Assembly: GCA_024408855.1 (NCBI GenBank)
Contig: JAKSUQ010000001.1
Coordinates: 1 to 64,000, forward strand
DNA from: a bacterium
GTDB taxonomy: Bacteria > Cyanobacteriota > Vampirovibrionia > Gastranaerophilales > Gastranaerophilaceae
Direction of reading: 5' to 3'
DNA: 64,000 nucleotides
The notes below the pieces were generated by a model. That model saw nothing but the letters and a program-made list of their open reading frames with translations. It was not told the DNA's origin and did no database searches. Shown piece after piece: positions 5,656 to 57,410 of this stretch (its first letter is position 1; each line of letters opens with the position of its first letter). The translations under genes were made by a program, and so were the position numbers.

Positions 5656-5673
5656 TAATTATTGGAGGAATAT

Positions 5674-6474: not shown

Positions 6475-6487
6475 ATCCGGAGTGCTA

Positions 6488-7681: not shown

Positions 7682-7698
7682 CCAAGAAAAGGATTTAT

Positions 7699-8235
7699 AT
7701 GGAAATTAGTACCCAAAATACAATATTATTGGTAATTGATATTCAGGAAAAATTATTAAATGCAGTTTTTAATAAAGATTATCTTGAAAGAAAAGCAGGT
7801 ATAATGGCTAAGGTTTCTTCAATATTAGAGCTACCTGTGATATTAACGGAACAATATCCTAAAGGACTCGGAAAAACAGTGGAAAGTTTAGAGTTCCATA
7901 ATGCATCTGTATATGAAAAAAACGATTTTAATGCACTTTTAGTTACTGATTTGTTTTCCAAAATTGAAAAAAACAATCCCCAAAATATTCTTGTTATAGG
8001 GATAGAAACTCATATATGCGTTTATCAAACGGTAAGGGCATTGTTGAATAAAGGTTATAACGTAACCGTTATGAAAGATGCTTGTGGAAGCCGTTCTGAA
8101 TATGAGCATTCTTCCGGATTAGATGCAATGAGAGATCTCGGTGCAAAATTGTCTACCGTAGAAATGACAATTTTTGAACTTTTAAAAACTTCTCGTCATC
8201 CGAATTTTAAAGAAATTCAAGCCTTAATCAAATAA
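7699..8235 (+). CDS. isochorismatase-family cysteine hydrolase
   Basis: This 178-residue cysteine hydrolase has the family triad: the aspartate in LLVIDIQEKL (residue about 13), a lysine in the central region, and the nucleophilic cysteine in GIETHICVYQT followed by a long helix. Family members hydrolyse nicotinamide, isochorismate, ureidoacrylate or related amides, and the substrate cannot be set from sequence. AAGGA lies 7 nt before the ATG. The gene ends 3 nt before the convergent gatB. Confidence 0.85.
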   Translation: MEISTQNTILLVIDIQEKLLNAVFNKDYLERKAGIMAKVSSILELPVILTEQYPKGLGKTVESLEFHNASVYEKNDFNALLVTDLFSKIEKNNPQNILVIGIETHICVYQTVRALLNKGYNVTVMKDACGSRSEYEHSSGLDAMRDLGAKLSTVEMTIFELLKTSRHPNFKEIQALIK

Positions 8236-8238
8236 TTT

Positions 8239-9687: not shown

Positions 9688-9788
9688 ATCTAATCCTCAT
9701 TAACGGTACATACCAACTTATCATAATACTAACACAAACATGGAAACTTGTAGATTAAAATAATTGTGAAAAAATAAAAATACGTAAC

Positions 9789-11312
9789 TTATGCTTCAAC
9801 TTCTCGGTGATTTTCGTAATCGTAAACTCCAGGAAATGCATCAACACCTGTTGTTTTCCGTGTTACCCAGTATTGGAATTTAGGAATAAGTGTTGATAAG
9901 AATAATGCGGCGACTCCAAATCCTGCTACAAAGTTTAATCCGCTTGCAATGTAGTTATTACGTTTTACCGATTTTAACAATTCGGATGTAATCTTGCCGT
10001 CTTTTGATTTTTTGCAAAGAAGTTCAACATATTCTTCCATATGTTTCTTATAATTATAAAGTTTTTTATTGGAAACATATTTGTACTTATTACTGCTTGC
10101 TCCGTCTGTAAATTTGTTAAATGCTTCAGACAGAAATTCAGGATTATTGATTTCAGATGTATTTATTGTATCAATAATTTGTTGTTTTGTTATAACAGCT
10201 TCCCCAAGTCTTTCAGGTTGCAATTTTGCCATTTTTTCAAGTCTGGTTATTAAGTCGTTATCTTTGATTACTTTTTTCAATTCGCTAATTTTTACAACTT
10301 GTAACGGTTCAACAGGTTTTTTGCGAACTTTGTTCAATAGTTTGTTTATACCGGAAAGTTTTCCTGTTTCAAACGTTATACCTTCCGGCAGTTTAATTTC
10401 ATTTTCAGGTTTTCCTAAGAAGCCTTTTTTAAATTCTTCAATCGACATGCTGTTATTGTGTTTTGAAATGTATTTTTCGAGTCGGTCTTGAAGTACTTGT
10501 GCATCATCAGGGCTGAGTCTGTTAACGTTACCGGTTTCTATATAATTGAGAATATTACGTACATGTCCTTGAGCCCACATGTAGAAGTAAATAGAACCAA
10601 TATCGCGAATTGCAATTTCGCGACGTTCTTCTTTTTTTCGTGCATTTAACATTCTTCCGCCGGCACAACCGATATCAGTAGATAGCAATTTACCGGTATT
10701 TGTATTTTCAATAGCATTTGTAAACCAATTAAGTCCGGCAAATCCGGCACCTTTAAAGGACGGAACGGCAGAATTTGTTTCCTGTTCTATGTTATTTGCT
10801 GCTATAATGTTTTGGTTATTCTTTTCTTCTTCAAATCTCTTGTGGCGGACTTTGTTTGTGAGGGCATGGTTTACCTTAGGTACTAACCATCCGATTATTA
10901 AATTTCCCAAAAGTACACTGGTTACTACTTTTGCACCTTTCATTAATGCAACTTGTTTTGCAGTATATTTCTTAGCACAGCCGTCTTTTATAAAATTGTC
11001 AAACGGTGTTCTTAAAAGCTTATCTGTACCGACATCAAATTCTATTCCGGGTTGTTTAAGGATTTTACCTAAAATTTTATCACCCAAATAATTAAAGAAT
11101 TTAACAGCAAATAACCAGACAATGGATCCCATGCTTTCTTCTATAAGTCTTTCTCTGGCTTCGTCTTGACCGCCTCTCTTATATGCCTGAATAGTTCTGC
11201 CTCCGACAACCGTTACTTCTAACGCAATAATTGGTGCTAATGCGTCAGTTTTAGTCATCTTAGATATGAAGCGAGAAAAGTTTTCGCCTCCATTTCCCGG
11301 AATTCTGGTCAT
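9789..11312 (-). CDS. hypothetical membrane-associated protein, lineage-type
   Basis: I do not recognise this 507-residue protein as a named family. It has two likely membrane segments, near residues 130-152 (VVTSVLLGNLIIGWLVP) and 450-475 (GLNFVAGFGVAALFLSTLIP). Between them lies a long, mostly hydrophilic helical region. The N terminus contains a hydrophobic stretch (ALAPIIALEVTVVGG) but no clear signal peptide. It ends with an acidic tail. The start ATG is preceded by AAGGA at 11 nt. It is divergent from rplS and lies upstream of gatB with a 101-bp gap. Confidence 0.6.
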   Translation of the reverse strand: MTRIPGNGGENFSRFISKMTKTDALAPIIALEVTVVGGRTIQAYKRGGQDEARERLIEESMGSIVWLFAVKFFNYLGDKILGKILKQPGIEFDVGTDKLLRTPFDNFIKDGCAKKYTAKQVALMKGAKVVTSVLLGNLIIGWLVPKVNHALTNKVRHKRFEEEKNNQNIIAANNIEQETNSAVPSFKGAGFAGLNWFTNAIENTNTGKLLSTDIGCAGGRMLNARKKEERREIAIRDIGSIYFYMWAQGHVRNILNYIETGNVNRLSPDDAQVLQDRLEKYISKHNNSMSIEEFKKGFLGKPENEIKLPEGITFETGKLSGINKLLNKVRKKPVEPLQVVKISELKKVIKDNDLITRLEKMAKLQPERLGEAVITKQQIIDTINTSEINNPEFLSEAFNKFTDGASSNKYKYVSNKKLYNYKKHMEEYVELLCKKSKDGKITSELLKSVKRNNYIASGLNFVAGFGVAALFLSTLIPKFQYWVTRKTTGVDAFPGVYDYENHREVEA

Positions 11313-11513
11313 TAATTGTGGTTTCCTTATCTTTCGGCTACGAATTTAAAACCTGTAAATATTCACATTTGCATATATTACATTAAATGTTTACAAAAGT
11401 AAAAAAAAGTTTACAATTCTAAGCATTTTTTAATTTCTACTTGCTTTTAGTTTTTTTTTCAAATATGATTAAGTCTAAATGTACACAATAGTCAAAGTAT
11501 AAGGAATAGCAAA

Positions 11514-11867
11514 ATGAATCCTATTATTAAGAATTTAGAAGCAGAATACACTACAAGAGAATTGCCGGAAATAAATCCCGGTGATACTGTAAAGGTATTT
11601 TGTAAAATCGTTGAAGGTAACAAAGAAAGAATACAGGCATACGAAGGTGCTGTAATAGCTGAACATGGTTCAGGTATCAATAAAACAATAACAGTACGTA
11701 AAGTGTTCCAAGGTGTTGGTGTAGAAAGAGTATTTTTGGTATACTCTCCGAGAATTGAGAAAATTCAAGTATTGCGCAAAGGTGATGTTAAGCGTGCAAA
11801 ACTTTACTATTTAAGAGAACGTTCCGGCAAAGCAACTCGTATTAAGGAAAAAATTGAAAAAAGATAA
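11514..11867 (+). CDS. rplS: 50S ribosomal protein L19
   Basis: This 117-residue protein is L19, which sits at the interface between the large and small ribosomal subunits. Diagnostic sequence is [47 protein letters not shown] and the C-terminal KAKLYYLRE-type segment. AAGGAA precedes the ATG by 7 nt. The usual partners rpsP-rimM-trmD are not upstream. The ribosome-assembly GTPase gene overlaps its end, giving a two-gene ribosome operon. Confidence 0.97.
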
Positions 11868-12705
11868 ATTGCATATACACTGGTATCCCGGTCATATAGC
11901 GAAAGCTGAACGTCAATTAAAAGAACAATTAGGTCTTGTTGATGTTGTGATTGAGGTAAGAGATGCAAGGTTACCTTTGAGTAGTGGTTATACAAACATA
12001 AAGAAGCTGTTGGGTGATAAACCAAGGCTTCTTTTATTGAATAAATCAGATTTGGCGGACAAAAGCATCCTGAAAGACTGGTGTGAATATTTGGAAAAAA
12101 TCACTGACTGCCCTGTAATTATTTCCGAGGCAAAAGGCTCGAGGGATTTGTCCGAAGTCATAAAGATTTCGGTTGAATTAGCGGAACCTAAAATTCAAAT
12201 ACTCATTGCAAAAGGTCTGTTAAGGCGACCGGCAAGAGTTATGGTCGTAGGCATGCCAAATGTTGGTAAATCCAGCATTATTAATAAATTAACAAAGTCT
12301 TCAAAAACAAAAATTGGTGCAAAAGCAGGAGTTACACGGCAACAGCAATGGGTGAGAATAAATCCGAAATTAGACTTGTTAGATACTCCCGGAATCATTC
12401 CGACAAGACAAGATGATCAACTCCAAGCAACAAAATTAGCATTTGTAAGTTCTGTATCTGAAAATGCCTATTCATCTGAGCCTGTTGCACAAGCATTGCT
12501 TGATATACTTGGAGAAAAATATCATTCGTCAGTATCGGAATACTATAAAGTTGAGCATTTAACACTAAGTGACATAGCGATAAGTCGGAATTGGATATTA
12601 AAAGGCGGATCTCCTGATACGGAACGAACTTCAAAATATATTTTGAAAGATTATCGTGAAGGCAGGATTGGGTTGTTTGTATTAGACGACTTGCCAGATT
12701 TTTAA
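11854..12705 (+). CDS. rbgA: ribosome biogenesis GTPase RbgA/YlqF
   Basis: This circularly permuted GTPase (283 residues) acts late in 50S subunit assembly. The G motifs appear in permuted order: G4 NKSD (residues 63-66), then G1 GMPNVGKSS (133-141), then G3 DTPG (177-180). The N-terminal [14 protein letters not shown] is typical of YlqF. The start is TTG inside the end of rplS, with AAGGA 5 nt upstream, so the two are coupled. The stop overlaps that of the convergent radical SAM gene. Confidence 0.94.
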
Positions 12706-37559: not shown

Positions 37560-37750
37560 GTAATATCTAAACTTATTAATGTAGTAGGCTTTACAAATGA
37601 ATAAAATTGAAGTAATATAATTATGTTGCTTAGTATTTCTTAACATATTGTCAATAATTTTTGTTTTCAATTTTTATTTCAAATATAATATTATTGAACA
37701 AAATGCTTATGAAACAACAACCCATTATTAGAATTAGGAAAACTGATATT

Positions 37751-39523
37751 ATGAAAAAAAGACTTAGTTTTTTAGCTGTAATGCTATTTATCGGTGCTTT
37801 AAGCCAAGCTCAGGCTGATCCGTATTCAATGTCGTCTGCGGCAGAACGCAGTACATATGATGCCGGAGTTTTTAACAGAGCTGATCAACTCCAACTTAAT
37901 GATTATCAACTCGAAAGAAGTTATGTTCAAACGTTGGATCAACTTACAAATGACGAAAGAATTTATGACGGTACTGTTGAAGAAGATATCGCAAGAGAAG
38001 GTGTTTTGTACAATCCGCACTTTCTGTTAGAAAGAATCAACTTCGAAGGCAATACGCAAATTCCTGAAGAAGAACTTCACCATCTGGCTTTAGAAGTTCT
38101 TGGAGAAGATATCTTCTTTGATGAATTATTGGAAGTTTGCTCAAAGGTTACGCAATTGTATCACCAAAAGGGTTATTTGACTTCTTATGCAACTGTTCCG
38201 CCTCAAAGAATCGTTGATGGCGTTGCAACAATTAAGATTGTTGAAAGCAAAGTCGGCGACATGAATATCGAGGGTGAGAAATGGACTCGTGAGTGGTATT
38301 TAAAACATATTATTATGGGTAAGGCAGGTTTACGTGAAGGTGATGTATTTAATGCAAAGAACCTCCAAAGAGCTATGAAAGAAATTAACCGTGAAGCGTA
38401 CGTTCAGGTACAAACTGAAGTTGAACGTGAAGCAACAGGTGATGAAAATACAGAAATTACATTGAACGTAAGAGATCGTTTCCCTGTAAGATTTAGTGCA
38501 GCTTATGACGATTATGGTAGAACTTATACCGGTGATCAGAGAGTATCATTCCTTGTCGGTATGCATAATTTAACCGGTTTAGGAGATAAAATCTATGGCG
38601 GTACAACTTTATCATCAGGTGCAACCGGTTGGATGGCAGGATATTCACTTCCTGTATCTTCATACGGAACAAGATTATCCTTTGACTTTTCAGATTCTGA
38701 TATCAAATTGGGCGGACCATTCAAAAGCTCTAACGTAAAAGGTAATGCTCAAAGTTATTTCTTTAAATTAACTCAACCGTTGGTTCAAACTGCAAAATCT
38801 GATTTGTTCTTATATTCAGGTTATGATTTTGTGAAAGCATATACTTCCGCACAGCCAAGCGGTATTCCGAAATGGTATTTGTCAGACTATGAATTGCATG
38901 TATGGCGTACAGGCTTGTATGGTATGACAGATGACAATTATGGTCGTTGGATTGGAAGTTTAGGTGTTGATTTTGGTATGGGCGGTACCGAAAAAACAGG
39001 TAGATCTACTGCCGATACTTCATTCTTTAAATTGACAGCCGGTGCAACTCGTGTACAGAGATTGTTTAAGAGAAGCATGGGTATTGTGAGATTGAATGGT
39101 CAATATTCTCCTAACGAATTATTTGCAGCTGAACAAATGCAGTTAGGCGGACCTTACACATTAAGAGGTTATCAACCGGCTGAAATTATCGGTGATTACG
39201 GTTTCTCCGGAACGGTTGAATACAGAACTCCGCTTCCTTTGTTGGATAAGATTTGGCCTTGGTTGGATGATCGTTTAAGAATAGCAGCATTCTATGACTT
39301 TGGTTGGTTGGGTTCAAACAACAATGCTATGGATTATCCTGCATCATTCTTGCACAGTGCTGGTTTCGGAGCTTATTTCAACTTGACAGACTGGTTAGTA
39401 GCACAGGTTGGTGTCGGCTTCCCATTTGGCGACAAGTATAATGAAAATACTGCAAGATTTTATTTCAGTGTTAACTCTGACTTAGACAGAATTATACCGT
39501 TGAGAAATCCTGAAAAACTATAA
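37751..39523 (+). CDS. POTRA/beta-barrel outer-membrane protein, TpsB (FhaC/ShlB) family
   Basis: The 590-residue protein, from ATG 37751, begins with a signal peptide (MKKRLSFLAVMLFIGALSQAQA). A POTRA_2-type domain (residues about 75-155, LLERINFEGNTQIPEEEL to KIVESKVG) and a second POTRA follow. Then comes a 16-strand-type barrel with LRGY near residue 480, the motif on loop 6 of Omp85/TpsB proteins. It would move a partner polypeptide through the outer membrane, or insert one there. No TpsA-like substrate gene is adjacent. The frame extends upstream to TTG 37661, but that removes the signal-peptide start. Confidence 0.85.
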   Translation: MKKRLSFLAVMLFIGALSQAQADPYSMSSAAERSTYDAGVFNRADQLQLNDYQLERSYVQTLDQLTNDERIYDGTVEEDIAREGVLYNPHFLLERINFEGNTQIPEEELHHLALEVLGEDIFFDELLEVCSKVTQLYHQKGYLTSYATVPPQRIVDGVATIKIVESKVGDMNIEGEKWTREWYLKHIIMGKAGLREGDVFNAKNLQRAMKEINREAYVQVQTEVEREATGDENTEITLNVRDRFPVRFSAAYDDYGRTYTGDQRVSFLVGMHNLTGLGDKIYGGTTLSSGATGWMAGYSLPVSSYGTRLSFDFSDSDIKLGGPFKSSNVKGNAQSYFFKLTQPLVQTAKSDLFLYSGYDFVKAYTSAQPSGIPKWYLSDYELHVWRTGLYGMTDDNYGRWIGSLGVDFGMGGTEKTGRSTADTSFFKLTAGATRVQRLFKRSMGIVRLNGQYSPNELFAAEQMQLGGPYTLRGYQPAEIIGDYGFSGTVEYRTPLPLLDKIWPWLDDRLRIAAFYDFGWLGSNNNAMDYPASFLHSAGFGAYFNLTDWLVAQVGVGFPFGDKYNENTARFYFSVNSDLDRIIPLRNPEKL

Positions 39524-42356: not shown

Positions 42357-42824
42357 TTATTTAGCATATTTAAGAAATACTTGTTGTCTTGTTTGCATCA
42401 TTTCTTCCGTAATTAACAATTTACCGTTAACTTTGCTTATAATCATATATGTTTTCAAGTTATCATTGTCATTCATTGGAGAACGTATAGCTGAAACTTT
42501 ATAAGAACCATTAGGCAGGGCTGTTACGTTAATATTGGTATAAGTGTTTTTATATTTTCTCATTTTTGCAACAGATTGACTAAGTCTTAACTGTTTCATA
42601 TATGTTGCAGTATCAGTAACAGCATTAGCTGTTGTTCCGTCAGGTTTTATAACTTGTCTTATAATTTTAGCATTTGGTGAATACATACTTGGGATTGCTG
42701 TACTGTATGAATTAGCGGCTTTAACGTAATTGTTAAAGAAATTAAGTGCATCCTGTTTTCCGTCAGCTAAAACCGACAATGTAATTGATGTAAATACTAA
42801 AAGTATTCCTAAGAATTTTTTCAT
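42357..42824 (-). CDS. small secreted protein, ABC-toluene/MlaC- or NTF2-like
   Basis: The 155-residue protein has a signal peptide (MKKFLGILLVFTSITLSVLA) and a mature alpha/beta part of about 135 residues. It begins with DALNFFNNYVKAANSYS, reminiscent of NTF2-like or MlaC-type folds, but no motif proves this. AGGAG is 6 nt before ATG, within the end of lysC, so the gene is expressed from the lysC transcript. A functional link with lysine synthesis is not evident. Confidence 0.6.
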   Translation of the reverse strand: MKKFLGILLVFTSITLSVLADGKQDALNFFNNYVKAANSYSTAIPSMYSPNAKIIRQVIKPDGTTANAVTDTATYMKQLRLSQSVAKMRKYKNTYTNINVTALPNGSYKVSAIRSPMNDNDNLKTYMIISKVNGKLLITEEMMQTRQQVFLKYAK

Positions 42825-44639: not shown

Positions 44640-47600
44640 TTAGTTTGTTAAGAAAGAATTGTATTGATTTTTGATATTGGAGATGAGCATGTCCATGGCT
44701 TGGAATTTACTTTCAAGTCTCGCTTGATATCTGTCAACTGCACTTTGAGTTTTTGATATTTTTTCGTTGTAATTTGTGATTTGTTTTTTGAAAGCTGCTT
44801 CTTGGGTTGAGAAATATCCTGAAGCTGATGTGAGGGCTTGTTCCAATATAGTTTCCAAATTGTTGAAAATACCGATATCGCCCGTTTCATCATTGCCGAC
44901 AAAAAGGGTTTTGAGGCTCGCGGGATCACTGTTGAACGCATTTATGAATTTATCTCTGTCGAGAGAAAGTTTTGAAACATCATTTGTTGTGGTGGAAACG
45001 TTCCCTGTTGTAGCGTTTTTCGTAGAAATACCGACTGCTGAAAGATTTTTAAATACAGACGAAGTGGAAATTGAACTTGTCATAAGGCTTCTTATCTGGT
45101 TTCTAATCATTTTCAGTACGGATTGGTCAGAAAGTTTTCCGGTTGAAGCAAGTTCTTTATCAAGATTTTCAATCAGGGTATTATAAGAATCTATAACGTC
45201 ACCGATTGCATTTGCAGCAGTTTCAGAATCTCTTGATATTGTGAGCTCAACGTCTTCATCCTCCGGAGCGGTAACGTTTTTGAGGTTAATTGTTACGCCG
45301 TCAATTCTTGAAATGTCGCTTGTAACTGTATTCGAAGTCGATGTAAAATCTGTTCCGTCGATAGAAAATTTTGCATTCTTACCGATAGTTTGCGCATTAG
45401 TTTGCATCCTGCCTGTTGTATCAGTATATCCCATAATTTCGGTAAAGTTGCTCAAGGTAGCACCATCTGTTTGAGAGCCTTTTTCTATATTAATTAGAGA
45501 AGCACCCGTAATTCTTGAAGTAATCATCAAATTGCCAGAAACAGAATCCCAATAAGCAGTAGCATTAGCTTTGTCGCTTGAATTTATTTGATATACTAAA
45601 TCGTTAACTGTTGTATTTTCGTCAATGGTAAATGTATCATCACCGATAATAAAATCTCCGGCTGTAATTGTTCCCCTTCTGAACAATCCTGCTTCTGTCA
45701 GTTTTGAAGCCCCATTAACCTTATACAATCGTCTTGTTGAAGAAACTGTTCCATCCTCGTTATCCAACAAACCGCAAATTGAAGACAGATTTGTTGTATC
45801 GTTAGTTGTACCAATTTTAATAACGGCATCATCAAGGCTTGAATCTATTGTTAAAATACCGTCATCAAAACTCAAACTTACGTCAGAGAGAACGGATTGA
45901 ATTTTTGAATTGAGTTGGTCAAATGTTTCCTCTGTATCTACCTGAACGACTTTCTTTTCGCCGTTTCTGATTATAGACAGTGATCCTGAAGAAATTCCGA
46001 GAGTGCTGAGTTTCGTGTCAATATCTGCATCATTGGCTACGGAAAGAGCAAGCTCTTCAGTAATTGTGTGAGTTTCAGTTAATGCATCAGAGCTCATGCA
46101 ATATCCGCCCCGAGCCGAATTATAAACTAAGCCCAAGTTGTCTAAAAGATTTGATGTAGAATTTTCTGTATCAATAGAAAAGCTGTTCAAACCGCCATCA
46201 AGGGTAATAACTCCATCGCTGTCAATATTTGCAACAATTCCGATTTGTCTGAATTTATTAAGCATAGAGCCTATGCTGTCAGTTGAAGCTATGTGAACAA
46301 CATGCTGTTCGTCGTTAAAGCTTACAATCAAATCACCGGCACAATCGTCTCCAAACAAATTTAACATTGTCGCTTCGGTCGCACTTACGGAAGTTGTTGT
46401 TTCGTATGAAGCTGTACCGGAATAGTTGTATTGAGTATCTCTTTCATTTGTACCGAACAGTTGAGAGATTACATTTGAGGAGTCGCTTCTTTCTGAAGCG
46501 GTGATATAAGAGTTATCGTTTGCAGAAACAACCAGCTGTCGTCCTGTTTCTGTTGTAATATAGTGAGTTTGCAGTCCTTTATTTTCAAGCAAATTTCTAA
46601 AATCGCCTAAAGTTTGGTCGCTACCAACATATAAAGTCTCTCTTGCGCCGTTTTTGTAAATATAGAATGAGCCGTTTGTAACGCCTAATTCTGATAATCG
46701 AGTATTGTCATCAGCGTTAACTAAATCGGTTGCTTCGGATTGCAAATATACAGTTGTTCCGTTATAATTTGTGTCTATGTCCGTACTTCCGGAAGCACTA
46801 AGTGAACCGGAACCGAGGAGAAATTCCGCCAAAGGACCTCTGAATGAGTATTCTCTGTCGCATTTCGTATTTATTTTGCCGTCATCATCAATATAACCGA
46901 CAATTCCGTATTCCTGCAAGTCTTCTAATATTTTTCCTAATTGTGTATGCGAATTATATGCCAAAATGTGGTCAGTTCCGTCAACCGTAACAGTCAAATT
47001 ATAGCTTGGGCCGGTGTATGCGGAATTATCCGACAGACGTATTTGTCCGATTTCGGTATCAGTTGAAGCGTTTACATAACCTGAATATGTAATTTTATTA
47101 GAGCTTAAATTGCTTACAGTTGTTTCACTGTCAGTTATTGACGGTGCGGTGAAATTAAATGCACCCAAAGGTCCGGAAAGTGTGTAGTCGTCGGTATAAT
47201 CAAGACTTATTGTGCCGTCAGCGTTTAAGGTAGCCCCTATGCCCAAACTATTTAATCCGTTTAACATATCTTGAACGTTTGAATTAGCGGACAAGTATAC
47301 ATTGCCTTTAAGGCTTCCGTTTTGGTAAACTGACAGATTGCCTGCTTCGAAACCGACGATTGATCCTAATCTGGATGACAGTCCAATATCGTCGATATTA
47401 CTTGCCTGTAAGACAGAAGAAGTTGTGTTCATACTAATGACAGAGTTTTGTTGATGATATAAATCATCACCTTCAAGTTCAGTGAAGTGGAATATCGCAT
47501 CCAAATTGTCGTTGAAATCAGTATCGAAGTATGAGCCTGCTGTGCATCCGATGGTAAATCTTCCGTCGTCGATTGATGTAGTAAAGCCGTTGTTTTCGAG

Positions 47601-50600
47601 CCAATCTCTAAAGTCGCCTATTGTAGAGTTTTCTGTCATAGTACGAGTTACAGTTGTACCGTTAACGACAGCGGTAACGCTTTGAGCTTCTGTAATACCT
47701 AATTCGCCGAATGTAGTATCGTTGTTAATATAGCTTTCGACATTTGATTGTAATGTTGTAGTTCCTTGAGTATTGCGAATTTCACCGGAAGAAAGGACTG
47801 AGAATGAGTCATCAACATCAATGTTCAATTTAGCGAGAATGCCGTTATCACCGAGGCTGTCATCAGTAATATAGAATCCATCTGATTGTGTGATGCGAAA
47901 TCTGCCTTGAGACGTGCAAGAAGCAGTAATTCCGTATTCTTCCAATGCATCAATAAAATTACCCATTTCAGTACTGCCGTCATAGAAAATGTTCCGGTTG
48001 CCTGCGGTTGTATGAATTGTGAGAGAACCGCTTTCGGTAATGCCTAATTGAGCGAATGTCGTATTATCGTTAAGTTTAACAATATTTTCCTTTGAGATTA
48101 CACTGTCGCAAGACATAGTTTTGTTGTTAACAATCTGCAAATCGGATGAAGTTGTAGCTCCGATTTGAGCAAGGAAACCGTTCACAGAGTTAGAGTCAGC
48201 ACCTATAAAGTTTTCGCCGGAATTTGTAAAACTCAAATACCCGTTTCTAATGTTATAGTTAATTCCGTAAGAACCTAACCCGTCGAACAAATCTGCGAAA
48301 ATTGTACTTTCGTCATAATCAATAGTACCGACGTTATTGTTGAAAGTATTGTAGATGGTTAAAGTGCCTGAGCCGACGCCAATATCACCGAGGGTTTTTT
48401 CGGACAGCATACCTTCCGTAAGCTGAGTTGTGCCGTTCACTTGTTCAGTCGGATTAAGTTGGGCTGAGGTTGAGGTTGAGAAAGTTGTTTCGCTCAAAAC
48501 GGTAGTTCTTGTACCCAAATTAAACATAGCAGGCATGCCGGTGAGAACATAGTCGTCAGAGTATGTTAAAGACATTGAGCCGTTTCTAAAAGTAGCTTGT
48601 ATACCGTCATAAGCATTCAAACCATCCAAGACATTTTGAATAGTGGTGTTTGCTGCGAGATTAATGCCTCCGACAAGAGTTCCGTTTTGGTAGATATTGA
48701 TATTTCCTGATTCAAATCCTACCATCGTACCTAATTGTGTACCGGTTGTTGTTTCTGCTATATTTGTAACATTGAGGACGTTAGAATTCGTATTATGAGC
48801 AGATGTATTTGTTTCGGTATTGTATAATTGACTGCCTGTTTTTTCTTCAAAGTGGAATATGCCGTCTAAAGTGTCATTGAAGTCATTAACAAAGTATGAA
48901 CCTTCAGAACCGCTGATATTTAGTATTCCGTTGTTTAGAGTGGCGGTAAAACCGTTTGTATTCAAGAATGATTTGAAATCACTGATTGTTTTGGCACTTG
49001 TTGCTGTGAATACTTGTTGTGTACCGTTGTGCATAACGGTTACATATTGGTTAGAAGTTATTCCAAGCTGAGCGAATGTTGTTGCTAAGGTTGCTGTTGT
49101 GGTACCGTTTGCGGTGAATTGGTGTCCGTCGGTAACATTGTATGTATCACCTGCATCACTTATATTGTAGGAAGTATTTATATTAATGTGTAAATTATCG
49201 AGTAAATCACCTGTATCAGATGTTATGTAGGCATTATTGTTTTGATTGATTACAAATGTGCCGCCAGGAGTGCAACTTGCTGTTATGCCATAACTATCAA
49301 GGGCATCAATAAGGTCTCCGATATTATGAACAAGTTCTGTTCCAATATTATCCGGCGAGTATGTTATTGTTTCATCACCACTTGTAGTATGGATAGTTAA
49401 ACTACCGCCATGTATCCCTATATCTCCTAAGCTTGTCGTATCATCAATCGGTGTTGCATTATTCTCTGTCCCCAATACATTGCTTGGAGAATATGAGTAA
49501 GAGTCTTGAACCTTTTGTTGGCTTGGTTGTGTGATGCCGATTGTATTCAAGAAACCGTTTGTAGTATTAGAATCGCCTGAGATAAAGTTTCCGCTTGTAG
49601 AAGTAAAATTCAATGCTCCATCTGTTAAGTCATAATCTATGCCTAAATCGGAAAGTGCATCAAGTACATTCATAAATGTATCGTGATGACCATAATTAAC
49701 GGTTCCGATAACTCCTGTTGTGCTGTTATACACTGTCAGAGTCCCATCTCCAATGCCGGCGTTCCCAATCTCACATTCATATCGCTGACTAACAATAGTA
49801 GGAGAATTTGCTGGAGATAAGTTCAAACAATTAGCGATGTCGGGGTCTAATCCTCCAAGCAGATATTTATTGTCGCTATCGGTTTTAAATACTACACCAT
49901 CATTAGTTAAGAATACAGGTGCACCAAGAACCCTCAGATCGTGAATAGTCGTACTTTGGGTTACGGTTATAACTGAAGATGTGCCGTTACCTACAATCGT
50001 CATATATCTCGTACCGGTTAAGCCCAATTCTCCGAATGTCGTATAATCATCAGCAAGTTGACTGCTTACGTTGTGTTGAGTGTTACTTGTAGTTTGGGCA
50101 TAAGTCGTGTTGCTACCTGTCGCATAGGTGTATCCGGCACCTTGTTGTATGTGCAATTTTGTTGCAAGAGTAGCAGTCATTCCTTTTATATAACTTGAGT
50201 CTGTACCTGCGATAGTAACGGTACCGTTGTTTGTAGTCATAGTTATACCTTTTTGGGATAAAGCACTTGCCATTCCGCCAAGGGTAGTGGAGTTTGTGAG
50301 TGTTACAACAGATTGTGTACCGTTGTTAATAACTGTAACGTATGTCGTTGATGTTACCCCAATACTGCTGAGTTTTGTTGTGGTCGTTGCATTAACTTGA
50401 CCTGATGTCAGAGTTAAAGAAGGATTCTCTTCCAATCCGCCTAAAATATTGGTTAATTCATCCGAAATACTTTTAATATATTTTTGTCCGCCTTGTACTG
50501 TTATGGTACCGTTTGTAGAATCGAATGCCGTTGTAACTCCGGCATTGGTCATTTTTTGGCAGAATTGAGCGATTGTTGTAGATGCCGTTAATGTAACTAT

Positions 50601-53600
50601 CGTATTTGTTGAAGTTCCGGATGTTCCTATCGTTATATATTTAGTACCATTCAAACCTAAATTGCTCAAAGTTGTGGAACTGCTCAATATGTATGAGTTA
50701 GCAGTATTTACTTGAGTTGACATACTTGTGCCGGTCGTACCGCTGCCGGTAAAAATATTAACACCATCAATTGTATATGCTGTACAGTTCGTATCATAAT
50801 GGTTGTTTGTAGTAGTAGTTCCGCCGCTATGAATATTTCCAAAATCTATACATCCTGTGACATTAGCAACCCCTCCTGTACTAGTACCTTTGCTATCGGG
50901 TGCCTTACCTGATTCACCATCGCTACCTCCTTTTATAGTTTGGGATGCCATAATATATGTGGCACTAACATTACAGTTCTGTACAGTACCGCCCATAAAC
51001 ATACCTACCAAACCTCCATTAACAGAACTACCGTTATTAGAAGAGGATACGCTAACGTTAATTGCATTACAACCGGAAAGATTAGATGTACTTCCTTCAA
51101 GGTTTCCTATCAACCCGCCATTATATGCTACATCAGTATACGTTGAAACAGAAGATATTGTTGCATTATAAGCATTAGAAGATGTTATTGTAGCACTCCA
51201 TGATGATCCTGCTATACCACCCGCTCCATTTTGACCTGAAACAGATACATTATGGACTGCACTATTGCTGATTGAACTGCTGTTATGTCCAACTAAGCCA
51301 CCGGCATTATCACCGGATACCTCTGAATTATAAACTTTGCAATAGCTTACGGTACAATTGGTACTGGTAAAACCTGCTATTGCTCCGGCTGATCCTCTAC
51401 TACTTGCTGACGAATCAATAACAGCAACATTATAAATGTTTGCACCATTAACTGTATTACCAGCAATACAACCGGCACAGATCATCGACGACGATGATGT
51501 AATATCAAAATCTTTTATAATTAAGTTCTTAACGGTACCACCCAAATTTCCGATTAGACCGACTCCATTCCCATTACCGGACCAGTTTATAGTTAAATTG
51601 GAGAGTGTGTGTCCGTTACCGTTCAATTCATTAGAATATGTACCTACAAGGCTGCATTGATTTGTTGGAACAGAGCTCAAATCGATATCTGCACCGAGGC
51701 AGATTTTTTGGTTATTTTGTAGTGCTGCTGTTAATTGGGCAGTTGTTGTTACCCAAGTATATCCGTTTGATGTAGCTTGTGCTTGAGTCATAGCTGTAAC
51801 AGATTGGGCCAAACCTCCGTTGGCACCGGTAACTATAAGTTCATCTGTGGTTTCTGTTTGTCCAACAGTTACAGTTGCTACACCTGTATATGTTATAGGA
51901 GTTGTACTTGTTTGTGTTATGCCGATAGTTCCTGTCGTAACATGACTTGTATTACCAAACCCTAAGGCTGTTGCCAAAGCTCCGTCTATATAATTACCGT
52001 TAGGTGCAGATAGGGTGATAATGCCGTTATTCATTGTAGCTGTTATGCCATAATCATCTATGTGGTCAAAAACACTTTGTAAAGTTTCAGCATTTGTGAA
52101 TATTCTAGAAGAATCAGCAATAGTTTGTCCGCTACTGTTTTTGATGAGTAATCTGTAACCGGAAGTGCTTGTAAGCCCTATATCTGCCAATGTGTTGTTT
52201 GCGGAAGCGGTTGTGTTGCCTGAACAATATACAGGATTTGACGAACTCATTTCAGTAATAAGAGAAACAGACCTTGTATCGAGCATCATATCCAACAATG
52301 GGACTCCGTTGTTGAATACTATCGGGTCTGAGGTCTGATCTCCTGCTATGAGTATCGTATTATATGGAGTGTTAGTTACTGATATGCCTAATTGATTTAA
52401 TAGCCCCTGGTCCCCGTGGATATGATTATCGTGAATAAATAGTGTAGGATCATCCGGAGTTAAAGTAATTACTCCGTTTTCCATTGTCATTGTAACATTA
52501 TTATCGCCCATAAAGTCTTGCAAATCTTCAAAAGTCGAAGTCGACGTAACAGAAAAATGATTCGTTTCTATCCTTAAGCCAGCTCCAATATCAACATAAT
52601 CAGACATTAAATCGCTCAATATAGCGTATTCAGTGCTTCCATAGGTTACAGGAGTTGAAGACGACATATTGTTAACAATAGTGGTCGAAGATGCACTGAG
52701 AGAAGTGCTTATACCCAAATTCTCCGCAACAGGTCCGCTTATATAATACCCATCGTCAGAGCTTATATTTATTCTGCCGTCTGCAACAGAAAAATTAATG
52801 CCGTATTCTTCCAAATCTTCCGATATTTGGTTAAGACTTGTTGTTGAAGATACGTTTATTGTTCTTACGCAAGTACCTGTACTATCATTGACATATATTC
52901 TGCTGCCGCTTACTCCGATATCGCCAAGAGTATTTGTTCCGCTTGCATTTACTGTATTCGTGTAAGTAATTGGTGCGGTTGATGTAAGTGTAACACCGGT
53001 TGTCGTTTGTCCGCTTGTCGAATTTACAACAGATATTCCCAGAGCATCAGCCAAACTGCCTGTTACATAATAACCGTTAGGCGAATCAATATCTATAACA
53101 CCACCGCTTATTGATGCACTGTTTTCACCAATGCCGTCAACACTATTGATTTCTGTAATTACATCATCCAAAGTGTTTGATGTCCCAAAAGACAAAGTTG
53201 TTACATAATTGTTGCTACTGTCATAAACATTGAGCTCTGTGTGATTTCCGTCTATTCCCAATCTGAATAAAGTTGTATTTCCGTCTGCTAATACCTGGGT
53301 TGAACAGAATAACTCGCTTGTAGATTCTTGGCTATATGTGTTTTCAATTTCTGTTGTACTCTCGATATCCCACGCTTCAGCGAGCGTTCCGCCTGTTATT
53401 CCGTAGCTTATTCCCTCAACAGGTTCGTTTGTAAAGCTCAATCTGCCATTGTGAATGGACATTGTTATACCATAATTTAACAAATCTGTGGCTATTGTGC
53501 CTATATAGGTTGTAGTATCATAAGTACGAGGAGTACTGCTTCCGTCTGAACCGGTTATTACAAATGTTTGGTCAGAACTGAATCCTAAGTCGGCAAGTGT

Positions 53601-56303
53601 AGTATTTTCATTAAGCGTTCCGGCTGTTGTTCCGCTATAATTTACAAGTACTCTCCCTGAGGAAGATATCGTGTTCGGGCTGTAAAATTCCGTTGAACTT
53701 CCGCTATCTGTTATATTTACACCTAACTCGCTCATTAGGTTTCCGTCAGCATAAATATATCCTGAAGATGCTGTAAGTGCCATTGAACCATTGTTTAATG
53801 ACATTGTTATTCCGTCAGATGAAAGAGTAAGTTTAAGGTCATCAAATGTTGTGGAAGAATTTATTGTATAATTGTGAGTTGTTCCGTCTACAAGATTGTG
53901 AACCGCAAAACTCCAGTTGTCAGAATCTGTAACAAAATCCGATACACGTGATGAGAGTTTTGCTGTTTGTATTTCAGAATAAGTTATCGGTGCAGATGAT
54001 GTTAAAGCATTACCAATAGTCGTATCCGTAGTGGTTGTAACAGTCCCGACTCCTAATGCATCAGCTAACGATCCGTCAATGTAGTTTCCGGAATTTGATA
54101 CCAGTGATACTTTCCCGTCAAACATTGTCGCATTAATACCGTAATTGCCAAGTAAATCAAAAATTTCGCTCAATTTTGCAGTTGATGAAATTTCGTAATT
54201 GTCAATAACTTCACCGTCAGAATCTTTGATGTTCAAGGTGTATGTCGGGCCGTTAAGTCCTAAAGAACTTAAAGTGTTTGCAGAAGTTGCATTTTGCATC
54301 GAGCTGTAAGTAATTGCATCGGAAGATGTAAGTGAAACGCCGGTCGTTACAGTTCCGCCTATACCGTTAACAACACAGATATCAAATTTGTCCGCAAATG
54401 TACCTGCAATATACTTCCCGTCTGTTGATGTGATCGATAAAACTCCGTTTTCAAGGGTTACATTCTCGGCTCCAAATCCGTCAATACCTGCAATAGCATC
54501 CATTACGTCGCCAAGTGTTGTGTTTGTTGCAAACGACATTGTAGTAAAGAGATTTCCATCCGACCCATATATCTCTACATATGCTGTTCGGTCAAATCCT
54601 AATTCTTCAAGTGTATTTTCTGCTGTTGCAGTTGAAGTCGAAATACAATTAAGACTTTCTGAGGACTCTTGATGTATGGTGTTTACGGTCGTGGATTGTA
54701 ATCTGATACCCCAATCGTCTGCAAGTCCACCGCTTGTAATAGCATAAGTTTTTCCGTCCACGTTATGAGCATTGATAAAATTCAATACTCCCTCGTTTAC
54801 TGTCATTGTAATCCCATACTCATCATGTAAAGTATCGGCTATATTCCCCAAATTAGCCGTTGTAACAAAAGTTTCTGTGTATTCATTCCCCTCAGAATCA
54901 ACAATATTTATAACTTGATCTGCGGTATATCCCAAATCGGATAATTTCGTATCAGCAGTAGCATTATGTCCGTTATCATATGTTCGTAATGAATGACTCC
55001 CTAAAAGTGTGTATTCACCGGAAACAGTTTGATGTTTATTCAAACCGAATGCACTAACAGCATCAAATGTACCGCCGGTTACTTCCGCACCGCTTAATGA
55101 TAAAACTCCGTTTGTAAACTCGGCATGTACTCCGTCAAGTTCATTTAATTCGTTTACAAATTCACCGATTTTTGTATCAGCTGATGTTAATGTTATTGTC
55201 TCGACAGTGCCGTTATCAAGTTTGAGCTCAACAGTCTCTCCATCGGTAAGTTGATGATTAGTATCCAAAATGTCGTTGATTTTGTTCTCTGATGTCGCAA
55301 GTATACTATTGCCGGCTTGATGACACTGTAAATTGTTGCTGGTTAATGTTACAGAACTTATTGTACTGCTTAACCCTAAAGCTGATATAATATTGGTATC
55401 GCCCTCATCTGTAATTTCAGCGTTGGTAATAGAAAAAACACCGTTTTCTAATGTCGTACGAATACCATATTCCTCCATTACAGACATTAAATCATCAAAT
55501 TTGTCGCCTTCTTCAACTTGAACTTCATATTGTTCCCCATCATAATCTACATAAAAACTGCCTGTATGTATCCCAACATCTGATAAGTGAGTATTTCTGT
55601 CAGCAAAGTGTGTGGTAACATTGTCAATTTCTAATCCGCCGCTAACGAAAGACGGATTTGTGTTTTCAAGTTTTAATGCGGTTTTGATATTGGTATTACC
55701 TATATCATTTATTGCATCTTTATCAATATTTACCCCAAACTTGCCTGTCTGCACGTTGTACCCTGCATCAACTCCTTTATCCCTGAGTTTTTGTGCGAAA
55801 GTTGAAATTGTATCGTTCTCCTGAATTGTAACACGACTCGTTACATTCCCTACCGTAACTTCAATATCACCTGCATTTACCCCAATGCTCCTTAAGTATG
55901 TATCATATGTAGCTTGTGTTGTTTGATTGTATACTGTTGTCTGTCTGTATGTACTTTCAGCCTTTGTTTTTGTAGCGAGCTGGTCAACTCTTAAATTGTA
56001 TGTAGCTTCTTTTGCATCAGCAGTTGCAGATGCCGTAAGTACTTCCACTCTTGAAGATGTAGCAATGTTTTGTGAAAAAATATCCATTGAAGCAATTTTG
56101 AATTTCGAATCAGTAACCTTTTCCACCATTGAACGGAATGTCGAGAAAAAAGACTTTATCCCCGCCAAAGCATTATTGCTGTCAATTATATTTTCTTTTT
56201 TTTCTTGCAGCGTAGTAACCTTCGCTTGCTTCAATTGAGTAAGCGCAGATACCCATGAAGATGTATCCAGCCCTGAGGCTAATCCGCTGAACGATATTGT
56301 CAT
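44640..56303 (-). CDS. giant FliD-like flagellar cap protein with repeat modules and GLUG insertion
   Basis: The 3,887-residue protein has FliD ends. N terminus: SFSGLASGLDTSSWVSALTQ, then a helical coil and LRVDQLATKTKAESTYRQ (residues about 5-120). C terminus from about 3633: KFSIDGTDFTS, then a helical end with NEKISKTQSAVDRYQARLES and KFQAMDMLISNIKNQYNSFL. FliD caps the growing filament, folds flagellin and can adhere; usual length is about 400-700 residues. Between the ends I count about 28 divergent modules of roughly 110 residues including linkers, with pattern TTLxxLGI...VxV...T..T...DVLDAL..YGI.....NG.L.I....G.YI...LA..LGI, like the Flagellin_IN fold. One GLUG-motif domain lies near residues 1525-1795. 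The frame is unbroken. No ribosome site is obvious: AAAGTGA precedes ATG. Flagellar chaperone genes are not nearby. Confidence 0.87.
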   Translation of the reverse strand: MTISFSGLASGLDTSSWVSALTQLKQAKVTTLQEKKENIIDSNNALAGIKSFFSTFRSMVEKVTDSKFKIASMDIFSQNIATSSRVEVLTASATADAKEATYNLRVDQLATKTKAESTYRQTTVYNQTTQATYDTYLRSIGVNAGDIEVTVGNVTSRVTIQENDTISTFAQKLRDKGVDAGYNVQTGKFGVNIDKDAINDIGNTNIKTALKLENTNPSFVSGGLEIDNVTTHFADRNTHLSDVGIHTGSFYVDYDGEQYEVQVEEGDKFDDLMSVMEEYGIRTTLENGVFSITNAEITDEGDTNIISALGLSSTISSVTLTSNNLQCHQAGNSILATSENKINDILDTNHQLTDGETVELKLDNGTVETITLTSADTKIGEFVNELNELDGVHAEFTNGVLSLSGAEVTGGTFDAVSAFGLNKHQTVSGEYTLLGSHSLRTYDNGHNATADTKLSDLGYTADQVINIVDSEGNEYTETFVTTANLGNIADTLHDEYGITMTVNEGVLNFINAHNVDGKTYAITSGGLADDWGIRLQSTTVNTIHQESSESLNCISTSTATAENTLEELGFDRTAYVEIYGSDGNLFTTMSFATNTTLGDVMDAIAGIDGFGAENVTLENGVLSITSTDGKYIAGTFADKFDICVVNGIGGTVTTGVSLTSSDAITYSSMQNATSANTLSSLGLNGPTYTLNIKDSDGEVIDNYEISSTAKLSEIFDLLGNYGINATMFDGKVSLVSNSGNYIDGSLADALGVGTVTTTTDTTIGNALTSSAPITYSEIQTAKLSSRVSDFVTDSDNWSFAVHNLVDGTTHNYTINSSTTFDDLKLTLSSDGITMSLNNGSMALTASSGYIYADGNLMSELGVNITDSGSSTEFYSPNTISSSGRVLVNYSGTTAGTLNENTTLADLGFSSDQTFVITGSDGSSTPRTYDTTTYIGTIATDLLNYGITMSIHNGRLSFTNEPVEGISYGITGGTLAEAWDIESTTEIENTYSQESTSELFCSTQVLADGNTTLFRLGIDGNHTELNVYDSSNNYVTTLSFGTSNTLDDVITEINSVDGIGENSASISGGVIDIDSPNGYYVTGSLADALGISVVNSTSGQTTTGVTLTSTAPITYTNTVNASGTNTLGDIGVSGSRIYVNDSTGTCVRTINVSSTTSLNQISEDLEEYGINFSVADGRINISSDDGYYISGPVAENLGISTSLSASSTTIVNNMSSSTPVTYGSTEYAILSDLMSDYVDIGAGLRIETNHFSVTSTSTFEDLQDFMGDNNVTMTMENGVITLTPDDPTLFIHDNHIHGDQGLLNQLGISVTNTPYNTILIAGDQTSDPIVFNNGVPLLDMMLDTRSVSLITEMSSSNPVYCSGNTTASANNTLADIGLTSTSGYRLLIKNSSGQTIADSSRIFTNAETLQSVFDHIDDYGITATMNNGIITLSAPNGNYIDGALATALGFGNTSHVTTGTIGITQTSTTPITYTGVATVTVGQTETTDELIVTGANGGLAQSVTAMTQAQATSNGYTWVTTTAQLTAALQNNQKICLGADIDLSSVPTNQCSLVGTYSNELNGNGHTLSNLTINWSGNGNGVGLIGNLGGTVKNLIIKDFDITSSSSMICAGCIAGNTVNGANIYNVAVIDSSASSRGSAGAIAGFTSTNCTVSYCKVYNSEVSGDNAGGLVGHNSSSISNSAVHNVSVSGQNGAGGIAGSSWSATITSSNAYNATISSVSTYTDVAYNGGLIGNLEGSTSNLSGCNAINVSVSSSNNGSSVNGGLVGMFMGGTVQNCNVSATYIMASQTIKGGSDGESGKAPDSKGTSTGGVANVTGCIDFGNIHSGGTTTTNNHYDTNCTAYTIDGVNIFTGSGTTGTSMSTQVNTANSYILSSSTTLSNLGLNGTKYITIGTSGTSTNTIVTLTASTTIAQFCQKMTNAGVTTAFDSTNGTITVQGGQKYIKSISDELTNILGGLEENPSLTLTSGQVNATTTTKLSSIGVTSTTYVTVINNGTQSVVTLTNSTTLGGMASALSQKGITMTTNNGTVTIAGTDSSYIKGMTATLATKLHIQQGAGYTYATGSNTTYAQTTSNTQHNVSSQLADDYTTFGELGLTGTRYMTIVGNGTSSVITVTQSTTIHDLRVLGAPVFLTNDGVVFKTDSDNKYLLGGLDPDIANCLNLSPANSPTIVSQRYECEIGNAGIGDGTLTVYNSTTGVIGTVNYGHHDTFMNVLDALSDLGIDYDLTDGALNFTSTSGNFISGDSNTTNGFLNTIGITQPSQQKVQDSYSYSPSNVLGTENNATPIDDTTSLGDIGIHGGSLTIHTTSGDETITYSPDNIGTELVHNIGDLIDALDSYGITASCTPGGTFVINQNNNAYITSDTGDLLDNLHININTSYNISDAGDTYNVTDGHQFTANGTTTATLATTFAQLGITSNQYVTVMHNGTQQVFTATSAKTISDFKSFLNTNGFTATLNNGILNISGSEGSYFVNDFNDTLDGIFHFEEKTGSQLYNTETNTSAHNTNSNVLNVTNIAETTTGTQLGTMVGFESGNINIYQNGTLVGGINLAANTTIQNVLDGLNAYDGIQATFRNGSMSLTYSDDYVLTGMPAMFNLGTRTTVLSETTFSTSTSAQLNPTEQVNGTTQLTEGMLSEKTLGDIGVGSGTLTIYNTFNNNVGTIDYDESTIFADLFDGLGSYGINYNIRNGYLSFTNSGENFIGADSNSVNGFLAQIGATTSSDLQIVNNKTMSCDSVISKENIVKLNDNTTFAQLGITESGSLTIHTTAGNRNIFYDGSTEMGNFIDALEEYGITASCTSQGRFRITQSDGFYITDDSLGDNGILAKLNIDVDDSFSVLSSGEIRNTQGTTTLQSNVESYINNDTTFGELGITEAQSVTAVVNGTTVTRTMTENSTIGDFRDWLENNGFTTSIDDGRFTIGCTAGSYFDTDFNDNLDAIFHFTELEGDDLYHQQNSVISMNTTSSVLQASNIDDIGLSSRLGSIVGFEAGNLSVYQNGSLKGNVYLSANSNVQDMLNGLNSLGIGATLNADGTISLDYTDDYTLSGPLGAFNFTAPSITDSETTVSNLSSNKITYSGYVNASTDTEIGQIRLSDNSAYTGPSYNLTVTVDGTDHILAYNSHTQLGKILEDLQEYGIVGYIDDDGKINTKCDREYSFRGPLAEFLLGSGSLSASGSTDIDTNYNGTTVYLQSEATDLVNADDNTRLSELGVTNGSFYIYKNGARETLYVGSDQTLGDFRNLLENKGLQTHYITTETGRQLVVSANDNSYITASERSDSSNVISQLFGTNERDTQYNYSGTASYETTTSVSATEATMLNLFGDDCAGDLIVSFNDEQHVVHIASTDSIGSMLNKFRQIGIVANIDSDGVITLDGGLNSFSIDTENSTSNLLDNLGLVYNSARGGYCMSSDALTETHTITEELALSVANDADIDTKLSTLGISSGSLSIIRNGEKKVVQVDTEETFDQLNSKIQSVLSDVSLSFDDGILTIDSSLDDAVIKIGTTNDTTNLSSICGLLDNEDGTVSSTRRLYKVNGASKLTEAGLFRRGTITAGDFIIGDDTFTIDENTTVNDLVYQINSSDKANATAYWDSVSGNLMITSRITGASLINIEKGSQTDGATLSNFTEIMGYTDTTGRMQTNAQTIGKNAKFSIDGTDFTSTSNTVTSDISRIDGVTINLKNVTAPEDEDVELTISRDSETAANAIGDVIDSYNTLIENLDKELASTGKLSDQSVLKMIRNQIRSLMTSSISTSSVFKNLSAVGISTKNATTGNVSTTTNDVSKLSLDRDKFINAFNSDPASLKTLFVGNDETGDIGIFNNLETILEQALTSASGYFSTQEAAFKKQITNYNEKISKTQSAVDRYQARLESKFQAMDMLISNIKNQYNSFLTN
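50930..51730 (-). other. GLUG-type beta-helix insertion within the giant FliD-like protein
   Basis: This part of the giant gene encodes residues about 1525-1795. It has repeated GGLVG-like turns: GVGLIGNLGGTVKNL, AGCIAGNTVNG, GGLVGHNSSS, AGGIAGSSW and GGLVGMFMGG. The period is about 35-40 residues. GLUG repeats occur in surface adhesins and proteases and fold as a parallel beta-helix. The insertion lies between repeat modules 11 and 12 and is unlike the rest of the protein. Confidence 0.75.
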
Positions 56304-56375: not shown

Positions 56376-56510
56376 ATTTTTAATTATATCATATTTATAT
56401 ATACTTTTCAAGTGTATGAAATTTTATAAAATTTTTTACAAAGAAAATTTTTCCATCAGAAAACAAATAATGCCTGATAGGGTGTATATTGGTGTGATTG
56501 ATAATAAAAT

Positions 56511-57410
56511 TTATGCTTTCATTACATCAAAAAAATAATATAGCAATTCTTTGAAAAATCCCATGTTTTTTGGAAGTTCAGGCTTTCTTTGATTAAGAAC
56601 ATATTGAACTCCCGCCATTTTTTTACCATAATCCTTTGCTTGCGGTGCATTTTTAATGTTCTCAATTAATTTATCCTGTTCCTTAATAGACATATTGAGC
56701 AGGCTTTTAATAACTCTGATTGCAGGTTTGTTGTTTACCGGAAAATCGGGTAGTAGCAGAAAACCACCGTAGTCAATATTATACCCTCTTATGCGGTTTT
56801 GAATGGAATAATCAACATATTCCAACCCCTTTTTTAAAAGATTAATTTTTTTCTTCGGACGTTTATCCTTTATGGAAACGTACTTCGTAATCATAAATTG
56901 ATTTTTTTCATTTAAATTCCCAAAATAAAATTTAACCCAATCTGAATTTTCTTTTGCATTTAAGTACAAAGCGTTGTTTTGCTCGGAAAGGTTTCCGAAT
57001 CCTGGGCAATCGACTTCATAAAATTTGTCAAATAATTTTGCAACATAAGTTTTTTCCCCGACTTTCATTTTATATGTGCCGCCAAAACCACCTACTCCTA
57101 AAAAAGTGAATTTTACTTTTTTATCTGGTGAAATTGCCTTATATTTTACTAATCCCGCCTTTATTTTTTTAGCAATTTTCCTGCTTGAATCAACTTCGCC
57201 TATCTTTAATATAGATGCGAACATTTCGAGTACCTTGGGAATATTAGTATCTCTTTCTTCTTTTGGAATATTTTGTATCCATTCATTTGGAAGCGTTCCT
57301 ACAAAGCCTTTAGATTTCGGATGTCGTGCTACCGATCTCAAAATTTCTTCCTTTGTAAGAATATTTTTACGTAAGTCAGCTGTTAAACCTTGAAAAGATA
57401 CATCTTGCAT
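56511..57410 (-). CDS. compact protein-kinase-like protein
   Basis: The 299-residue protein has a kinase N-lobe pattern: LGVGGFGGTYK (residues 104-114, glycine loop), TYVAKLF with K125 as the ATP-binding lysine, and E143 in an alphaC-like helix. The catalytic core is condensed: YVDYSIQNRIRGYNIDYGG gives D200, N205 and D213-Y-G in the spacing of HxDxxxxN...DFG. Residues 1-100 are an extra helical region. No membrane segment or signal peptide is seen. The N terminus MQDVSFQGL resembles other hypotheticals of this lineage as I remember them. Kinase activity is inferred only. It lies upstream of, and in line with, the giant FliD-like gene. Confidence 0.6.
   Translation of the reverse strand: MQDVSFQGLTADLRKNILTKEEILRSVARHPKSKGFVGTLPNEWIQNIPKEERDTNIPKVLEMFASILKIGEVDSSRKIAKKIKAGLVKYKAISPDKKVKFTFLGVGGFGGTYKMKVGEKTYVAKLFDKFYEVDCPGFGNLSEQNNALYLNAKENSDWVKFYFGNLNEKNQFMITKYVSIKDKRPKKKINLLKKGLEYVDYSIQNRIRGYNIDYGGFLLLPDFPVNNKPAIRVIKSLLNMSIKEQDKLIENIKNAPQAKDYGKKMAGVQYVLNQRKPELPKNMGFFKELLYYFFDVMKA

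Follow-up and report, generated by a model that had tools for sequence, protein, structure and literature searches.

A predicted GLUG-type β-helix within a giant FliD-type protein of the Gastranaerophilaceae, and its relatives in flagellins

The flagellar cap protein is usually regarded as a conserved assembly factor. A stretch of 64,000 nucleotides from a bacterium of the Gastranaerophilaceae (contig JAKSUQ010000001.1, positions 1 to 64,000; "the window") encodes a FliD-type protein of very unusual length, in which a long series of modules is interrupted by what a first-pass annotation called a GLUG-type β-helix, perhaps the receptor-binding head of a fiber. What is this domain, and what might it do between the modules of a flagellar protein?

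The giant FliD-type protein

The gene (44640..56303, minus strand) is an uninterrupted open reading frame for 3887 residues, about 410 kDa. Its ends are those of FliD: FliD_N occupies residues 10–112 (55968..56276, minus; PF02465, 53.5 bits, E 3.9e-14) and FliD_C residues 3641–3878 (44670..45383, minus; PF07195, about 127.1–134.7 bits, E 9.3e-37), both above the Pfam cut-offs of 24.8 and 25.4 bits, respectively. NCBIfam FliD models give partial matches far under their cut-offs. Between the ends, a module profile iterated from six segments of the window protein delineates an N-terminal arm of 12 Flagellin_IN-like modules (residues 134–1444; 51972..55904, minus) and a C-terminal arm of 15 (residues 1877–3499; 45807..50675, minus), with one weak further match within FliD_C. 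A search at E up to 1 lists no match of Flagellin_IN itself (PF07196) in the window protein, and in a related giant FliD (L050) the model scores 22.0 bits against a cut-off of 22.7. A two-module piece of the stalk (53694–54302) is predicted to have a confident fold (mean pLDDT 85.6), for which a fold search gave the D2–D3 region of FliD the highest probability (5xlk, 0.97, E 0.19). This is a resemblance only; the search returned no match at E ≤ 0.001.

Residues 1445–1876 are the sole break in the series, with no module matched there by the iterated profile. The break comprises a linker free of module and GLUG matches (residues 1445–1499; 51807..51971, minus; pLDDT about 33–58 over 1449–1498), the GLUG / M26-N-like β-helix domain as defined by profile match, AlphaFold2 model and VIA comparison (residues 1500–1799; 50907..51806, minus), and a C-terminal tail and linker (residues 1800–1876; 50676..50906, minus; pLDDT 30–61) into which the VIA ranges extend to about residue 1872. 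The first-pass annotation had rightly seen a single break and had located an insert of ~270 residues at 50930–51730. The location holds, with a slightly wider profile extent of about 300 residues; by the profile count, the modules flanking it are 12 and 13 rather than 11 and 12.

The window genome (1.96 Mb, 110 contigs) encodes one further FliD, of about 580 residues, and seven flagellin-type proteins of 304–444 residues. The neighbors of the giant gene are non-flagellar (an aspartokinase-type AA_kinase, a PLP decarboxylase and a DisA-type cyclase). At the FliD loci fetched for comparison, the genes at 56511–57410 (upstream) and 44292 have no relatives, and the protein at 42357 has one, at L182. 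A possible, weak sigma-70 promoter lies at 56383..56411 (minus; TTGAAA-17-TATAAT, with TG before the −10 element), the best site in the scanned region from a scan that returned 40 sites versus 43 expected by chance. A phage origin of the giant FliD found no support: when viral contigs were scanned with residues 1–114 of the FliD, a weak test, no relative was confirmed. The window also encodes a ShlB/FhaC-type two-partner secretion transporter (37664–39523; PF03865, E 7.4e-25). Transporters of this type are the usual partners of β-helical exoproteins.

The presence of another, 580-residue FliD and the non-flagellar genes around the giant gene would suit a protein that is not a cap, exported separately by the flagellar secretion apparatus and then released or held at the surface as a fiber. 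However, FliD_N and FliD_C are both retained, tandem pairs of giant FliDs occur in three genus genomes, and in another genus a giant adjoins a normal-sized FliD (L305). A separate fiber of this kind is a possibility, though a rather doubtful one, and the giant protein is treated below as a putative second cap protein.

Relationships and predicted fold of the inserted domain

The GGLVG-like turns noticed at first reading are indeed confined to the insert: the strict motif GG[LI][VIA]G occurs four times in residues 1499–1800 and nowhere else in the protein, compared with a mean of 0.02 in shuffled segments, none of which reached four in 10,000 trials. A looser motif is present six times in the segment and is absent from the remainder. 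The cut-out segment matches Pfam GLUG (PF07581) over four stretches with a sub-threshold 15.1 bits; GLUG is not listed in a Pfam scan of the whole 3887-residue protein at E up to 1, and an NCBIfam search with the insert segment gave no matches. Because 15.1 bits stays under the Pfam cut-off of 20.5, the window domain is classed, by its sequence, as related to GLUG domains and not as a member of the Pfam family.

Its relatives give a clearer picture. Searching 57 related genomes with the segment yielded matches in 17, including the window genome, the others being 27–42% identical. Profile A1 was seeded with sequences chosen for similarity to the window domain. A leave-one-out profile of 19 relatives, with the window copy excluded, matches the window protein at 93.8 bits (residues 1500–1738, E 5e-28 at Z=1000); none of 1,102 shuffled or reversed decoys was reported at E up to 100. 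Pfam GLUG is matched by 19 of the 20 profile members, the sole exception being the window copy, and Peptidase_M26_N (PF05342) by 14; the window copy has no match to either model at E ≤ 0.001 and is 24–33% identical to the other members. All 20 align over a common N-terminal cap (consensus GKYILMNDIDLSG..W..IG....GELNGNGY.I.NLTIN) followed by repeated GGLVG turns. Searched at E up to 10, the window genome has no second match to the domain profile, and GLUG is absent from all seven flagellin-type proteins. With a GC content of 0.40 against 0.39 for the remainder of the gene, the insert bears no compositional mark of a recent foreign origin. Cysteines are enriched in residues 1500–1860 (50724–51806), with 10 in 361 residues versus 17 in 3526 elsewhere (Fisher p 8e-5).

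An AlphaFold2 model of 576 residues, including both flanking modules (40 alignment rows, mean pLDDT 75.7), contains a β-strand solenoid with pLDDT values of 88–98 over residues 1499–1688 and about 60–88 over residues 1719–1788. The flanking modules are modeled as separate α/β units (pLDDT 75–93), with linkers partly below 50. Foldseek returned five matches at E ≤ 0.001, all called IgA1 proteases, one of them putative. VIA-align likewise placed six IgA1-protease entries at the top (Z scores of 24.9–28.9 over 264–279 residues, 19–21% identity; best entry 7uvk, Z 28.9), above a second tier of lyases, epimerases, adhesins and tailspikes with Z of at most 17.5; a family missing from this list is not thereby excluded as a fold relative. 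The structural match reaches about residue 1872, in a low-confidence part of the model. Among PDB sequences, IgA1-protease chains are found by the family profile (E 2e-23), and no chain is found by phmmer with the window domain alone. From the model, the insert is most likely an independently folding right-handed β-helix of GLUG type, closest to NTD2 of the M26 IgA1 proteases and without the protease. Family profile, fold prediction and structure comparison thus uphold the first-pass reading of a GLUG-type β-helix in FliD, even with the single copy under the Pfam cut-off; the two outcomes that had been named as speaking against it, absence of any GLUG match and a fold that continues the neighboring modules, were not found, given the match by the leave-one-out profile and a fold distinct from the modules.

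The accessible text on M26 IgA1 proteases describes this β-helix, NTD2, as a gating domain that moves to admit substrate (PMC9637739, PMC7695701). Could the window domain itself be an enzyme, or the remnant of one, whose substrate at the flagellar tip is polysaccharide or protein, in the manner of proteolytic flagellins? Polysaccharide lyase and epimerase β-helices are among its second-tier fold matches (Z 15–17.5), and flagellins with an enzymatic metallopeptidase domain exist, M26 being listed there as enzymatic in the accessible part of the survey (PMC5595980). However, the HExxH zinc motif is absent from all 3887 residues of the window protein. It occurs in two of 130 GLUG-bearing reading frames, which are overlapping copies of one FliD with the motif at residue 259, outside GLUG, and in none of the 68 distinct GLUG / M26-N-type flagellin frames of the genus among the matches listed, some of them cut. 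In addition, the part of M26 that is matched is its non-catalytic N-terminal region, and the lyase and epimerase matches reflect a common fold, with 7–14% identity in nearly all those rows. Because catalytic residues are absent, an enzymatic role is unlikely.

It is tempting to read the structural match as a sign of binding to secretory IgA, by which the flagellum would be coated with host antibody or would carry a decoy. The nearest solved folds are IgA1-protease β-helices, and relatives with a stated source come from rumen or gut. Against this, the β-helix of the enzyme is described, in the accessible text, as the gate that admits the substrate (PMC9637739, PMC7695701), identity is about 20%, and GLUG is also present in control genomes of free-living archaea. 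The idea has no support of its own and is most improbable.

The domain in cap and filament proteins of the genus

Relatives of the FliD N-terminus lie on contigs titled Candidatus Gastranaerophilales, Melainabacteria, Cyanobacteria or bacterium, and the sources named are rumen or gut. In genome sets of one genome per species, FliD_C is present in 62 of 65 genus genomes; 45 of these have a frame of at least 1000 residues, and 40 have both a giant FliD and one of 500–700 residues. The domain profile matches at least 51 of the 65. With protein contexts assigned by small home-made profiles rather than Pfam, at least 33 genomes have the GLUG domain in a flagellin frame and at least 19 in a FliD frame, and the domain is commoner in flagellins than in FliD within the genus. 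The first-pass annotation had noted that GLUG is not known from FliD; no published report of the pairing was found in the open-access PMC literature, yet it recurs in these 19 or more genomes. Architectures in which GLUG lies between the two flagellin ends (flN-GLUG-flC) are present. Of 146 genomes sampled from the whole order, 31 are hit by the domain profile at E ≤ 1e-20, GLUG flagellins also occur in other genera and families, and two FliD-type frames of another genus of the same family carry GLUG (L303, L305).

Several further protein types were observed in this survey. Giant flagellins of 1059–2085 residues (L104, 2613–8867; L137, 635–4366; L143, 741–3917; L127, 969–5411) have Flagellin_IN-like modules on both sides of their GLUG domains, mirroring the giant FliD; in L127 no flagellin C-terminus is matched in the frame. 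A separate family of about 950–1010 residues, found in several genomes (L130, L132, L133, L142, L145) and non-flagellar by the home-made profiles, combines a coiled-coil-like N-terminus, a GLUG region and a similar C-terminal region. Giant FliDs also occur in head-to-tail pairs on one strand (L291, L294, L297, L298), for example 3004 + 1310 and 4942 + 1302 residues, with abutting frames. Two contigs of one genome (L091 and L105; G042, contigs C67 and C68) each consist almost entirely of one frame of modules and GLUG (4052 and 4930 residues), open at the contig ends; if these belong to one gene, its product would be near 9,000 residues.

The 157 non-redundant domains (64 from FliDs, 16 from FliD-like fragments, 64 from flagellins, six from giant flagellins and seven from elsewhere) were placed on a FastTree phylogeny, with the FliD-like fragments scored as FliD and the seven other rows outside the count of context changes. 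At least 14 changes between FliD and flagellin are required, compared with 42–57 in 200 label shuffles; without the FliD-like fragments there are 12 among 134 rows. Context is therefore inherited, but has repeatedly changed. FliD and flagellin copies are up to 69% identical between species (over 205 residues) and 65% identical within one genome (over 217 residues). The closest relatives of the window copy are other FliD-type copies (34–39% identity). One might speculate, tentatively, that GLUG/M26-type cassettes form one pool moving between flagellins, giants included, and a second class of caps with fibers of up to 6148 residues, the flagellum serving as an open display platform on whose shaft and tip each species combines its own binding domains.

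Where the domain sits within FliD bears on its role. Among 95 complete, distinct FliDs, GLUG is found in 16 of the 41 with at least 1000 residues and in none of the 54 shorter proteins. In all 16 giants the GLUG block is central, with at least three modules before it and at least eight after; placement at random junctions would give such centrality with a probability of about 2e-6, a figure for thresholds set after seeing the data and with related proteins counted separately. The central position fits a distal apex. The arms are unequal (12 versus 15 modules in the window protein, 5 versus 11 in L185), and "apex" is therefore only approximate. Several relatives have GLUG domains interspersed with modules, at most over about 2,850 residues (L096), an arrangement that suggests a decorated shaft rather than one head.

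The window insert lies between two whole modules. In relatives, as far as their sequences indicate, GLUG is placed as if nested inside a module: of 50 domain places in the named loci, 38 are followed by a module match that begins no earlier than profile position 8, and a TTLxxLG-like module start is often present in the sequence preceding GLUG. A different nesting was seen in the giant FliD of L173 (G047, 3504–12470), where an acyl-carrier-protein domain (~residues 795–870; PF00550, E 1.3e-11) with an intact DSL motif is itself nested in GLUG, as also in L050 and L107. It is 46% identical to an 84-residue carrier-like protein of the same genome, and is therefore no recent copy of that gene.

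Alternatively, the domain could be a passive spacer or variable antigenic shield that makes the tip fiber longer or stiffer and varies in response to immunity or phages, having no specific ligand of its own. The presence of GLUG in just 16 of 41 giant FliDs, the divergence of the window copy from the other profile members (24–33% identity), the long alternating arrays of some species and the mechanical gating role described in accessible text for the IgA1-protease β-helix (PMC9637739, PMC7695701) all agree with this. The 25 complete giants without GLUG show that the domain is dispensable for the giant protein. But plain modules already supply length, giants of up to 5411 residues existing without GLUG, and flagellins, for which stalk length does not matter, have repeatedly retained or gained the domain. 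A spacer or shield is therefore conceivable without being the likelier role.

The domain is, rather, probably a variable surface-contact cassette shared by tip and filament proteins, carried here by the module arms of a second, giant FliD. After export through the flagellar apparatus, the protein would be anchored at the filament tip by its FliD_N and FliD_C end domains, with two arms of Flagellin_IN-like (FliD D2/D3-like) modules carrying the β-helix outwards. Provided that the chain extends outward and then returns, as it does in known FliD, the β-helix would lie near the far end of each arm, where it may contact host, food or other cells in an adhesive or recognition role. It would be drawn from a repertoire that also serves as the outer domain of flagellins. 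Receptor binding by the β-helix is plausible, the ligand contact being hypothetical; the FliD of Pseudomonas aeruginosa is described as a mucin adhesin in the accessible text of PMC8306008.

Comparison with known systems

Compared with FliDs that have D2/D3 domains, including that of P. aeruginosa, the window protein shares the FliD termini and Flagellin_IN-like modules, a pair of which is weakly like D2–D3. It differs in its length, six to seven times that of the other FliD (580 residues) in its genome, in its number of modules (about 27) and in its foreign β-helix. With the M26 IgA1 metalloproteases (IgA1P of Streptococcus pneumoniae and Gemella haemolysans; Bacteroides ovatus 3n6z) it shares the NTD2 fold and a profile-level sequence relationship. 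In contrast to these, it lacks HExxH, is about 20% identical, and has its β-helix between flagellar modules and not beside a protease. Lacking HExxH and, in the window copy, a PF05342 match, it was rejected as an M26 IgA1 metalloprotease. It was also rejected as a flagellinolysin (NF033876), being no flagellin and giving no match; flagellin L037 matches that model over its first 74 positions only (31.3 bits, cut-off 205).

Flagellins with inserted domains, such as the flagellinolysins, likewise carry a domain of extracellular proteins in the variable outer region of a filament protein. In a 2017 survey, 17 of 26,587 flagellins were listed as having a Peptidase_M26 domain, which was treated there as enzymatic (PMC5595980), and for flagellins the association is thus already known. 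Here the host is FliD and the domain has no catalytic motif; the M26 domain of those 17 may be the catalytic part or the N-terminal β-helix. "Peptidase_M26" labels on flagellar proteins of this lineage may denote a non-catalytic β-helix and not a protease. No report of a GLUG/M26-type domain in FliD, or of giant FliDs, was found in the open-access PMC literature, a search scope with subscription papers and preprints outside it.

The giant flagellins of marine gammaproteobacteria (PMC6248924) are similar in that a flagellar protein is enlarged by duplicated outer domains and an extra insert. These are filament proteins, and the accessible text does not mention FliD. The β-helix may be an exchangeable element with which the flagellum touches its surroundings, and offers a direct handle for binding tests in these gut bacteria. 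Flagellins with foreign outer domains are already known; if the reading proposed here is true, a duplicated FliD of 2,000–6,000 residues, sharing its cassette with flagellins, would mean that the filament tip can specialize for display or contact.
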